Source of the DNA: Comamonas terrigena NBRC 13299
GTDB lineage: Bacteria; Pseudomonadota; Gammaproteobacteria; Burkholderiales; Burkholderiaceae_C
Assembly (NCBI RefSeq): GCF_006740045.1
Contig: NZ_AP019749.1
Span: 3,925,001 to 3,989,000, forward strand
Length of the DNA: 64,000 nt
Direction of reading: 5' to 3'
The position numbers and the translations under genes are program-made. Below are positions 5,623 to 53,515 of this stretch, piece by piece; the first letter of the stretch is position 1; every line of letters starts with the position of its first letter. The notes beneath the pieces are model-generated. The model was not told the origin of the DNA. It did no database searches and saw only the letters and a program-made list of their open reading frames with translations.

Positions 5623-6786
5623 TCAGGCGGCCACCAGGGCCTGCTCGGCTTCCGCCAGCACGCTGCGGCGGGCTTGCACGGCGTCGGCCAGCACCTGCAG
5701 CGTGGACAGGGTGTCGTCCCAACCGATGCAGGCATCGGTGATGCTCTGGCCGTAGGCCAGGCCGCAGGCGTCGTCCTTGCCCGGGGTGAACTTCTGGGCG
5801 CCGGCCACCAGATGGCTTTCCAGCATCACGCCGAAGATCTGGTTCGAACCGCCACGCATCTGGTCGGCAATGTCGGCGGCCACATCCTTCTGGCGCTCGT
5901 GCTGCTTGGAACTGTTGGCATGGCTACAGTCCACCATCAGCGTGGCCGGCAGGCCGGCCTTTTCCAGGTCGGCACAGGCGGCGGACACATGGGCAGCATC
6001 GTAGTTCGGGGTCTTGCCGCCGCGCAGGATGACGTGGCAGTCCGGGTTGCCCGAGGTGTTGACGATAGCCACCTGGCCGTTCTTGTGCACCGACAGGAAG
6101 TGGTGGCCACGGCTGGCGGACTGGATGGCGTCGGTGGCAATGCGGATATTGCCGTCGGTGCCGTTCTTGAAGCCGATGGGCGCCGAGATGCCCGAGGCCA
6201 GCTCCCGGTGCACCTGGCTTTCGGTGGTGCGGGCTCCGATGGCGCCCCAGCTGATCAGGTCGCCGATGTACTGGGGCGAGATCACGTCCAGGAACTCGCT
6301 GGCCGCCGGCACGCCCAGGCGGTTGATGTCGATCAGCAGCTGGCGCGCAATGCGCAGGCCTTCGTCGATGCGGTAGCTGCCATCCAGGTAGGGGTCGTTG
6401 ATCAGGCCCTTCCAGCCCACGGTGGTGCGGGGCTTTTCGAAGTACACGCGCATCACCACTTCCAGGCGGTCCTTGTACTGCTCGCGCACCACGGCCAGGC
6501 GGCGGGCGTATTCCAGTGCGGCGGCGGGATCGTGGATGGAACAGGGGCCCACAATGACCAGCAAGCGGTCATCCTGGTTGCGCATGATGCGCTGGATGCT
6601 GTTGCGGGTGCCACTCACCAGGGTTTCCACGGCCGTGCCGTCGATGGGGAAGAAGCGGATCAGGTGCTCGGGAGGGGGCAACACGGTAATGTCCTCAATG
6701 CGTTCGTCGTCGGTCTGGCCAGTCTTTTCAGTCTTTTGCACAGAGCGATACCAAGCGTCGCCGGAGGAGGTGTGGTGAGCGTTCAT
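5623..6786 (-). CDS. aroG: 3-deoxy-7-phosphoheptulonate (DAHP) synthase, class I
   Basis: A 387-aa enzyme that condenses phosphoenolpyruvate with erythrose 4-phosphate, the entry step of the shikimate pathway. Family signatures include LLVIVGPCSIHDP near residue 65, KPRTTVGWKGLINDP, GNPDCHVILRGG and DCSHANSSKQ. The start MNAHHTSSGDAW is chosen because GAGG lies just upstream. The ORF is open further upstream, but that region holds a leader peptide and a terminator. Expression is probably controlled by that attenuator; which aromatic amino acid inhibits the enzyme cannot be read from the sequence. Confidence 0.96.
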   Translation of the reverse strand: MNAHHTSSGDAWYRSVQKTEKTGQTDDERIEDITVLPPPEHLIRFFPIDGTAVETLVSGTRNSIQRIMRNQDDRLLVIVGPCSIHDPAAALEYARRLAVVREQYKDRLEVVMRVYFEKPRTTVGWKGLINDPYLDGSYRIDEGLRIARQLLIDINRLGVPAASEFLDVISPQYIGDLISWGAIGARTTESQVHRELASGISAPIGFKNGTDGNIRIATDAIQSASRGHHFLSVHKNGQVAIVNTSGNPDCHVILRGGKTPNYDAAHVSAACADLEKAGLPATLMVDCSHANSSKQHERQKDVAADIADQMRGGSNQIFGVMLESHLVAGAQKFTPGKDDACGLAYGQSITDACIGWDDTLSTLQVLADAVQARRSVLAEAEQALVAA

Positions 6787-6830: not shown

Positions 6831-6869
6831 AAAAAAAACCGCCGGGCTTTTCAGCTTCGGCGGTTTTTT
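6831..6869 (-). terminator. attenuator terminator in the aroG leader
   Basis: On the minus strand, AACCGCCG pairs with CGGCGGTT, with an inner GCT-GAAA-AGC, and the 3' arm runs into eight Ts. The hairpin lies after the leader-peptide stop and 45 nt before the aroG ATG, so it would end transcription before the gene. The opposite strand also has a T-run, so it may work both ways. A competing fold is possible: GGCGG (6906-6910) plus GAGG with CCTC plus CCGCC (6859-6863). Confidence 0.82.
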
Positions 6870-6901
6870 GGGAGGTGTTCGTGTGTGCGAGCGCTTGCCT
6901 C

Positions 6902-6958
6902 TCATCCGCCTGGGACCGAGAACCAAAAGTAAAAATAGAAAGCGCTGCGTACTTGCAT
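6902..6958 (-). CDS. aromatic-rich leader peptide of aroG
   Basis: An 18-codon ORF on the minus strand encodes MQVRSAFYFYFWFSVPGG. Seven consecutive aromatic codons (Phe, Tyr, Phe, Tyr, Phe, Trp, Phe) fit a peptide whose ribosome stalls when aromatic aminoacyl-tRNAs are short. An in-frame GTG six codons earlier could give a 24-aa version. AGCGCTT in codons 5-7 can pair with AAGCGCT at 6890-6896 as a pause hairpin. There is no Shine-Dalgarno. This is inferred from sequence alone but is hard to explain otherwise. Confidence 0.82.
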   Translation of the reverse strand: MQVRSAFYFYFWFSVPGG

Positions 6959-6966
6959 AGCGGTTG

Positions 6967-6995
6967 AATGTAGCACCGCTCATGCGGCAGCGCAA
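6967..6995 (-). promoter_or_regulatory. candidate sigma-70 promoter for the aroG leader
   Basis: TTGCGC, a 17-nt spacer and TACATT, with TGC just before the -10 (extended -10 form). The predicted start of transcription falls within about 3 nt of the leader-peptide ATG, so the leader mRNA would be nearly leaderless. A second candidate lies about 110 nt further upstream (TTGAAA near 7100). Confidence 0.5.
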
Positions 6996-7113: not shown

Positions 7114-8574
7114 TTAAGCGGTACCACCCACCGTCAGTCCGTCAATGCGCATGGTCGGCTGGCCCACACCCACTGGCACGCTCTGGCCTTCCTTGCCGCA
7201 GGTGCCCACGCCGCTGTCCAGGCGCATGTCGTTGCCGATCAGGCTGACCTTCTTCATGCACTCGGGACCGTTGCCCACCAAGGTGGCGCCCTTGACGGGG
7301 TACTGGATCTTGCCGTTTTCCACCCAGTACGCCTGGCTGGCCGAGAACACGAACTTGCCGCTGGTGATGTCCACCTGGCCGCCCCCGAAGTTGGTGGCGT
7401 ACAGGCCCTTCTTGATGGAAGCGACGATTTCCTGCGGATCCTTGTCGCCACCCAGCATGTAGGTGTTGGTCATGCGCGGCATGGGCAGGTGGGCATAGCT
7501 TTCGCGGCGGCCGTTGCCGGTGGGCTTGACGCCCATCAGGCGGGCGTTCATGGCGTCCTGCATATAGCCCTTCAGGATGCCGTCCTCGATCAGCACATTG
7601 GCCTGTGAAGGGCAGCCTTCATCGTCCACGTTCAGCGAACCGCGGCGGTCGGTCAGCGTGCCGTCGTCCAGGATGGTGACGCCCTTGGCGGCCACGCGCT
7701 GGCCGATGCGGCCGCTGAAGGCACTGGAACCCTTGCGGTTGAAGTCGCCTTCCAGGCCATGGCCTACGGCCTCGTGCAGCAGCACACCCGGCCAGCCCGA
7801 GCCCAGCACCACGGTCATCATGCCGGCCGGTGCGGGGCGCGATTCGAGGTTGACCAGGGCCTGGTCCACGGCTTCGTCCACGTACTGGGCGATCTGTTCG
7901 TCGCTGAAGTACGCCAGGCCGAAGCGACCGCCACCGCCAGACGACCCCACCTCGCGGCGGCCGCTCTTCTCGGCAATCACCGTCACGGACAGACGCACCA
8001 GCGGGCGCACATCGGCGGCCAGCGTGCCATCGGCACGGGCCACCATGACCACGTCGTACTCGCTGGCCAGACCGGCCATCACCTGCACGATGCGCGGGTC
8101 CTTGGCACGGGCCAGTGTTTCGACCTTGCCCAGCAGCTCCACCTTGGCGGTGCTGTCCATGGATGCGATCGGGTCCAGACCGGCGTACAGCGTACGGCTG
8201 GGCGCGATCTTGGCCTTGGGAATGCGCACCTTGCGGCTTTGTGTGGCCGAGGAAATGGCGCGCACGGCCCGCGCTGCGTCCAGCAGCGAGGCTTCGGAAA
8301 TATCGTCGGAGTACGCGAAAGCGGTTTTCTCACCGCTGACCGCACGCACGCCCACGCCCTGGTCGATGGAGAAGGAGCCGGTCTTGACGATGCCCTCTTC
8401 CAGGCTCCAGCCTTCCGCGCGGGTGTACTGGAAATAGAGGTCGGCGTCGTCCACCTGGTGGGCGCGGATCTCGGCCAGCGCAGCGCCGAGGTGGCGCTCG
8501 TCCAGCCCAAAAGGTTCAAGCAGCAGTTGCCGGGCCGTGGCCAGGCGCTCGATGGTGGGTTCGCGGGAGATCAT
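7114..8574 (-). CDS. tldD: metalloprotease TldD
   Basis: A 486-aa cytosolic protease subunit of the TldD/TldE pair, which degrades unfolded peptides and matures some modified peptides in enterobacteria. The zinc motif [12 protein letters not shown] (HExxxH type) lies near residue 265, and [33 protein letters not shown] and the C-terminal [20 protein letters not shown] are family signatures. Length is close to the E. coli protein (481 aa). The ATG at 8574 is used; another lies three codons upstream, and neither has a strong ribosome site. Confidence 0.94.
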
Positions 8575-53159: not shown

Positions 53160-53177
53160 GTGTGGAATCTAAAAGTG

Positions 53178-53515
53178 TGAAGTTCGCCTGTAAGCCGGAT
53201 TCTGTGCACAACGGTTGCCCGCTGCGTGACCGCCATTACTCTGGGCTGGGGGTCGCCCCACCAGCTCGATGCTACCTACCCGCACACTCCGGGGGCCCCG
53301 TCAACGTGTGCCTACTTGGTATTGCTGCGCGTAGAGATTGCCCGTTTCACCCTGGATGGTCTGCCTTGCGGCACTCCTGCCAGACTCGTCTCTGTTGCTC
53401 TGATCCTCACCTCACGGTGGACAGCCGTTAGCTGCTACGCCGCCCTATGCAGTCCGGACGTTCCTCCAGTGCGGCCTTTCGGCACCAGCACCAGCGGCGG
53501 TCCAGCGAACTTCAC
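53178..53515 (-). ncRNA. rnpB: RNase P RNA (class A)
   Basis: About 338 nt on the minus strand. The ends pair as GAAGTTCGC with GCGAACTTC (P1). Hallmarks of the ribozyme are present: GGAGGAACGTCCGGACTGCA near the 5' end (the conserved GGAGGAAnGTCC block), and AGAATCCGGCTTACAGGCG near the 3' end. It is the catalytic RNA that cuts tRNA 5' leaders, together with the RnpA protein. Exact ends are estimated from the P1 helix and a -10 box. Confidence 0.94.

Follow-up and report, generated by a model that had tools for sequence, protein, structure and literature searches.

The window, meaning the whole stretch of 64,000 nucleotides of Comamonas terrigena DNA that was analysed, carries on its minus strand a gene for a class I DAHP synthase, whose product scored 530.2 bits against TIGR00034 (cut-off 173.2) and 554.9 bits against the AroG equivalog NF006723, just below the cut-off of 568 for that model. 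Ahead of this gene lie a short ORF with a run of aromatic codons and an intrinsic terminator, and farther upstream, in the same direction, lies tldD, which ends at 7114 and is followed by a terminator-like hairpin of its own (7068-7046). This order of a minus-strand aromatic leader ORF, a terminator and then aroG had been described in an initial annotation, and every feature that it claimed was found in place on the minus strand. The interval 6831-6995 also holds a promoter-like element, which had gone unmentioned there and which escaped a sigma-70 scan of the window that demanded more (9 of 12 consensus bases). The features referred to below are these:

5623..6786, minus strand: class I DAHP synthase (aroF/G/H family; TIGR00034), the controlled gene in our proposal
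6831..6869, minus strand: intrinsic terminator, CCGCC...GGCGG and eight T, -20.2 kcal/mol when folded alone
6839..6843, minus strand: segment 4, GGCGG, within the terminator (GGCGG and the eight T together occupy 6843-6831)
6859..6875, minus strand: segment 3, CCTCCCAAAAAACCGCC, common to antiterminator and terminator
6890..6896, minus strand: AAGCGCT, arm 2 of the pause stem of the initial annotation, lineage-specific
6898..6910, minus strand: segment 2, GGCGGATGAGAGG, the antiterminator 5' arm GGCGG-GAGG, overlapping the end of the leader ORF
6902..6958, minus strand: leader ORF, MQVRSAFYFYFWFSVPGG, 18 codons and a stop, with no Shine-Dalgarno core
6918..6922, minus strand: segment 1, TTCTC, able to pair with GAGAG in segment 2
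6920..6940, minus strand: control codons TTC TAT TTT TAC TTT TGG TTC (Phe-Tyr-Phe-Tyr-Phe-Trp-Phe)
6940..6946, minus strand: AGCGCTT, arm 1 of the same pause stem, lineage-specific
6967..6975, minus strand: putative extended -10, TGCTACATT, with 8 nt between the -10 and the leader AUG
6990..6995, minus strand: putative weak -35-like hexamer TTGCGC (3 of 6 consensus bases), with a 17-nt spacer to the -10 hexamer TACATT

Folded in isolation, the leader had an MFE of -42.3 (z -2.33), and 4 of 200 shuffles were equally stable. An Rfam search of the window returned RNase P as its sole match (bacterial class A RNA at 53175-53513, minus strand, 208.8 bits), with no leader family and no T-box. Rfam searches of 10 leader loci at E values up to 1 likewise gave no match at the leader on its own strand, and a sub-threshold sroD match (E 0.92) lay opposite the terminator of locus L051.

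Occurrence of the leader upstream of DAHP synthase genes

In as much as 650 nt of sequence ahead of each DAHP synthase, we looked for a terminator preceded by an ORF of 8 to 40 codons whose aromatic run scored 3.5 or more. Such a pair was present before 61 of 80 close aroG relatives; the 80 include L027 and L079, loci that begin less than 25 nt from the enzyme and so cannot reveal a leader. The same scan was positive in 22 of 91 upstream regions of the order sample (counting both DAHP synthase genes of the window's genome; these are 91 of 98 listed matches, with the seven lowest-scoring left out) and in 1 of 69 regions of the class sample (69 of 81 listed matches outside the window's own genome, with the 12 lowest-scoring left out). 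On the reverse complements of the same 240 regions the scan found 11 ORFs, and on mononucleotide shuffles (one for each region) 5 ORFs, with a terminator behind the ORF in 0 of 240 regions in either control. The locus thus combines what is expected of an attenuator, namely a short ORF rich in codons for the products of the pathway and an intrinsic terminator between that ORF and the gene.

We built a covariance model on the window together with 36 relatives, supplying 13 base pairs by hand; at E ≤0.01 it matched 194 of the 200 family genomes sampled, a count that is not fully independent because the sampled genomes may overlap the species in the model. The initial annotation had named retention of aroG with loss of the aromatic run in related genomes as evidence against its reading, and this is mostly not what we found: 176 of 179 good-quality family genomes had a model match, though the run is absent from some more distant relatives. 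Among similar enzymes, some from Polynucleobacter (L032-L034) and Cupriavidus (L035-L036) had no leader before them, and another Cupriavidus locus (L074) does carry one. By tblastn, the enzyme lay directly downstream at all 21 loci tested (the 20 best family loci and the window). Across the order sample the model gave 24 matches in 23 of 100 genomes, with 22 of these just before a DAHP synthase by coordinates, in exactly the 22 genomes picked up by the ORF scan; the other two resemble ordinary terminators without an aromatic leader.

The leader also extends to a family of the same class and a different order, represented by genome G111, in which 14 of 60 genomes had such an enzyme and a leader of the same plan stood before all 14, a count that is descriptive because the regular expression was composed after inspecting those sequences. 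This family is probably Xanthomonadaceae, judging from a named Xanthomonas relative (L081) with the same leader. Farther afield, in a MAG labelled Anaerolineae (L080, 1298-1387), a DAHP synthase is preceded by an aromatic ORF (MSRYFSFFSWYGYFAAGQVE...) with a hairpin of another kind, which perhaps reflects an independent origin or a mislabelled contig.

Within the window's own genome, the second class I DAHP synthase (L002, C1:4400558-4401616, minus strand, 58% identical to P0001) had no leader under the same scan, so that one of two isoenzymes is seemingly attenuated. A search of that genome with the model found no further leader targets: beyond a single match at 2.4e-21 it gave four at E 0.58-7.9 (L242 and L243 among them), and no DAHP synthase was present at any of these four loci. 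A pattern search of the genome for aromatic codons gave 9 matches, the leader included, and the backward control pattern gave 26. In the family, 13 of 200 genomes had two model matches. Twelve of the second matches were weak (E 9e-4 to 9e-3), and the nine inspected by eye, which are those other than L295-L297, looked like ordinary terminators and were rejected as leaders. The remaining second match (L288, in a 70% complete genome) was a complete leader, and the ORF behind it has a DAHP synthase-like beginning.

Conserved RNA cores and alternative pairings

Across the 84 leaders compared, the window included, the antiterminator core GGCGG started 0-17 nt past the aromatic run in 80, compared with a mean of 5.2 and a maximum of 14 in 1000 trials with shuffles of the same 45 nt, and the GGCGG, CCGCC and GGCGG cores were all present in 80 of 84. 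The first of these cores was read in frame 0 in 30 leaders, frame 1 in 3 and frame 2 in 47, with at least 6 changes of frame on the enzyme tree (149 enzymes, 84 rows scored), and the peptide tail after the run differed correspondingly (GG, AD, AA, AV). That GGCGG is kept even though it is read in three frames points to a constraint on the RNA and not on the peptide. The aromatic run itself stays in frame while the order of its residues varies (FYFYFWF, FYFWFYF, FWFGFYF, FFAFYFWF), and the presence of Trp in it changes at least 8 times on the same tree. Variation in both residue order and tail frame fits a sensor of tRNA charge, and is hardly allowed to a specific arrest peptide.

Evaluating how the ribosome would affect pairing, we modelled a nascent RNA that ends just before segment 4 for the 80 of 84 leaders with all three cores. 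The mean probability of pairing between segments 2 and 3 was 0.91 when the first aromatic codon occupied the ribosomal A site. It fell to 0.66 for the last such codon and 0.22 one codon later, and it was 0.00 with the ribosome at the stop codon (n=80). For the window it was 1.00 with the A site at each of F7-W12 under all six footprints, footprint-dependent at F13 and S14, and 0.00 from V15 onward. In this folding model, a ribosome stalled on the control codons frees the antiterminator and a ribosome at the stop codon blocks it. With no ribosome the mean was 0.53 across leaders (0.20 in the window), and the state without translation is thus not clearly a terminating one. In full-length RNA at equilibrium, every state favours the terminator (mean probability 0.93-1.0, and 0.93 with a stalled ribosome), which means that the switch must be kinetic.

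The initial annotation had proposed three alternative states, built on a pause stem, an antiterminator and a terminator. The cores of the latter two are conserved, and by these cores the antiterminator, with its 5' arm lying where the leader ORF ends, excludes the terminator. The wider helix is weakly supported, the outer half of helix 2:3 showing a slight advantage over shuffles (mean z -0.81, with z negative in 68 of 80 leaders and p<0.05 in 7 of 80). The 7-bp pause stem is present in the window but beat shuffles in 9 of 80 leaders (mean score 13.84 vs 12.39), and we regard it as lineage-specific and not as a general feature. Stem 1:2 (TTCTC:GAGAG) was also rejected as a conserved helix, with a mean score of 11.88 vs 12.32 for shuffles and 29 of 80 leaders exceeding the shuffle mean; its register is constant in part of the lineages, and we keep it as a possible stem.

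Comparison across relatives had been suggested as a check on both the run and the hairpins, and it bore out the former, the aromatic run being widely kept, but covariation in the hairpins carries no weight. The base beside the cores forms the triples C-G-C in 33, T-A-T in 21 and A-T-A in 2 of 80 leaders, and it pairs between segments 2 and 3 in 63 of 80, compared with a shuffle mean of 49.9. As a case of three-way covariation this was rejected: there were 3 changes in segment 3, segment 2 followed in 0.3 of 2 independent pairs, and with so few independent changes on the tree the pattern counts for nothing. RNAalifold found no covariation in alignment A1 and little in A2, a scarcity that follows from the invariance of the cores.

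Promoter geometry and codon content of the leader

We scored the extended -10 over the 60 nt before the leader AUG, and 54 of 84 leaders reached the cut of 7.5, with 43 of those elements ending 6, 7 or 8 nt before the AUG; shuffles had an extended -10 at 5-9 nt in 1.2% of cases. The same spacing of 6-8 nt was seen in 28 of 30 further leaders, drawn from 32 loci of which 2 gave no leader within the search bounds, and whose genomes may overlap those of the 84. The predicted leaderless layout was likewise present in all 14 leaders of the G111 family. None of the leaders in these three sets (0 of 84, 0 of 30 and 0 of 14) had a four-base Shine-Dalgarno core between -18 and -4, compared with 8.3% of shuffles. 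Between the terminator and the enzyme, such a core preceded some ATG or GTG in 72 of 84 regions.

Transcription is expected to start at the seventh base after the -10, and a spacing of 6-8 nt therefore places the expected start 0-2 nt before the AUG. Judged by this geometry, the leader ORF is probably leaderless in the window and in much of the range, which is new here. Leaderlessness is not universal, since the best -10 of Burkholderia-type and Massilia-type leaders (e.g. L055, L062) lies farther away, about 22-47 nt upstream of the AUG, still with no Shine-Dalgarno core; in the Burkholderia type this best -10 is mostly below the 7.5 cut.

By residue content, the 84 runs comprised 60 with Phe, Tyr and Trp, 21 with Phe and Tyr, 2 with Phe and Trp and 1 with Phe only, and all three residues occurred together in 28 of the 30 further leader peptides. 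The 570 aromatic residues of the 84 runs were 348 Phe, 158 Tyr and 64 Trp, and from codon number Phe would be sensed most and Trp least.

Codon choice within the runs was also distinct. The 84 leaders used TTT 233, TTC 115, TAT 73 and TAC 85 times, and the aroG genes of the leader-bearing relatives among L003-L082 used TTT 63, TTC 387, TAT 103 and TAC 348 times, so that the Phe and Tyr codons of the leaders lean to TTT and TAT, unlike those of these aroG genes. Less structure or slower wobble decoding may be the cause of this bias.

Proposed mechanism, competing explanations and precedents

The element is very probably a ribosome-mediated transcription attenuator for DAHP synthase. This reading, which was that of the initial annotation, is strongly supported by the comparative evidence, namely an element seen in almost all sampled family genomes, with its parts in constant order, its cores conserved and its ORF kept aromatic, together with the ribosome-dependent pairing of the folding model; from these we infer both attenuation in the cell and the start site. 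Transcription would begin at the leader AUG or within about two bases of it, and the leader would be read as a leaderless mRNA. With charged Phe-, Tyr- and Trp-tRNA plentiful, the ribosome would reach the stop codon and cover segment 2, leaving segments 3 and 4 to pair as the terminator, and RNA polymerase would halt before aroG. With charged aromatic tRNA scarce, the ribosome would wait on the aromatic run, GGCGG-GAGG of segment 2 would pair with CCTC-CCGCC of segment 3, the terminator would not form in time and aroG would be transcribed.

A terminator that merely serves the upstream gene, with an incidental ORF and no regulation, could be imagined because tldD lies upstream in the same direction, but a terminator-like hairpin already follows tldD itself, the promoter-like element sits between that gene and the leader, and the pairing of ORF and terminator accompanies DAHP synthase across families and is absent in controls; we give this explanation almost no credence. 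Another way to stall a ribosome is that of an arrest peptide such as TnaC, and here the nascent aromatic peptide would bind a free amino acid or the exit tunnel. The strong conservation of the run as a run would suit such a peptide, but arrest peptides of the TnaC kind need a conserved residue order for stalling, whereas here the order varies, Trp comes and goes on the tree and the tail is read in three frames, making this a very improbable account. It is also improbable, if a little less strikingly so, that the leader peptide or the short terminated RNA acts in trans as well, like peTrpL and rnTrpL of Sinorhizobium meliloti. The accessible text on that system reports that the rnTrpL transcript starts at the trpL ATG (PMC7298713), which is the same layout as the leaderless one predicted here; its leader is a Trp leader with a reported start, whereas ours is predicted, and the order and tail of the peptide vary in our leaders.

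The harder question is which amino acids the attenuator would sense. Judged by codons, effective sensing of all three, as the initial annotation had proposed, stands at about an even chance. The same attenuator might instead respond effectively to one amino acid, most likely Phe, with the Tyr and Trp codons passive or nearly so, an alternative that we find doubtful and yet worth serious weight. Phe makes up most of the aromatic residues (348 of 570), 22 of the 84 runs have no Trp, and the Phe-Tyr-Phe leader AroR of Corynebacterium glutamicum is described, in accessible parts of the source, as unaffected by Tyr availability (PMC11802643). Yet a ribosome on any of F7-W12 frees segment 2 in the window model, which leaves the Tyr and Trp codons well placed, and Phe, Tyr and Trp occur together in most runs and further leaders, though Trp is rare. 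The response of AroR to Phe and not to Tyr nonetheless cautions against assuming that every codon present is sensed.

The nearest precedent, likened by its described features, is this AroR-aroF attenuator of C. glutamicum, reportedly the work of Neshat et al. in 2014. Accessible portions of two sources describe a Phe-Tyr-Phe leader before aroF with ribosome-mediated attenuation that responds to Phe and not to Tyr (PMC11802643, PMC4046766). As there, a DAHP synthase lies downstream and the leader holds Phe and Tyr codons; the described system differs in being actinobacterial and in its Phe-Tyr-Phe run, with no Trp codon mentioned in those portions, whereas the run here is proteobacterial, has up to about seven aromatic codons and mostly covers all three amino acids.

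The trpL, pheL and pheST leaders of E. coli combine alternative segments with an intrinsic terminator, and the ilvGMEDA and thr leaders read several amino acids of a shared pathway. The latter resemble the present leader in reading more than one amino acid but concern branched-chain amino acids or Thr and Ile, not aromatic ones. For trpL, pheL and pheST, the accessible text of one source describes a leader ORF and control by the availability of charged tRNA (PMC11802643), and unlike the present element each is tuned to a single amino acid and regulates either a terminal branch or a tRNA synthetase. A leader peptide formed without a ribosome binding site is indicated for C. glutamicum ilvBNC by a title cited in PMC4046766. 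Attenuators at DAHP synthase genes appear in partly accessible tables, as aroA-I-alpha-Y > tyrA of Vibrio in Table 7 of PMC1173090, from Merino's predictions, and as an 'attenuator sensing tyr-tRNA' at Shewanella aroF in a table citing E. coli work (PMC2659441); these concern other genes and lineages, and the accessible portions mention no mixed aromatic leader peptide. The accessible text of PMC5343134, on TyrR and TrpR in gamma-proteobacteria, likewise makes no mention of the present element. A literature search made mostly without subscription papers found no description of the leader in Burkholderiales or xanthomonads, and an earlier prediction is quite possible. The logic is ordinary and the combination new, with probable attenuation at DAHP synthase through a run that mixes Phe, Tyr and Trp codons, in a leader ORF that is probably leaderless in much of its range.

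Taken further, the element may act as a leaderless OR gate, in which running low on charged tRNA for Phe, for Tyr or for Trp would alone suffice to open the entry to the whole shikimate pathway, a 70S ribosome would load as the RNA emerges, and one RNA element would replace the isoenzyme-by-isoenzyme repression of E. coli, being either ancestral to, or spread between, Burkholderiales and the second family of the class; we hold this fuller reading tentatively, at a little under even chances.

DAHP synthase, the first enzyme of aromatic amino acid synthesis, governs entry to the pathway. E. coli regulates this step with TyrR, TrpR and three isoenzymes, and one small RNA element appears to do here what these regulators and isoenzymes do there. 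It offers a natural test of how a single run that stalls ribosomes weighs the charging of three tRNAs, and of whether attenuation is well served by leaderless translation, and it is a possible handle for higher yields of aromatic products in these bacteria.
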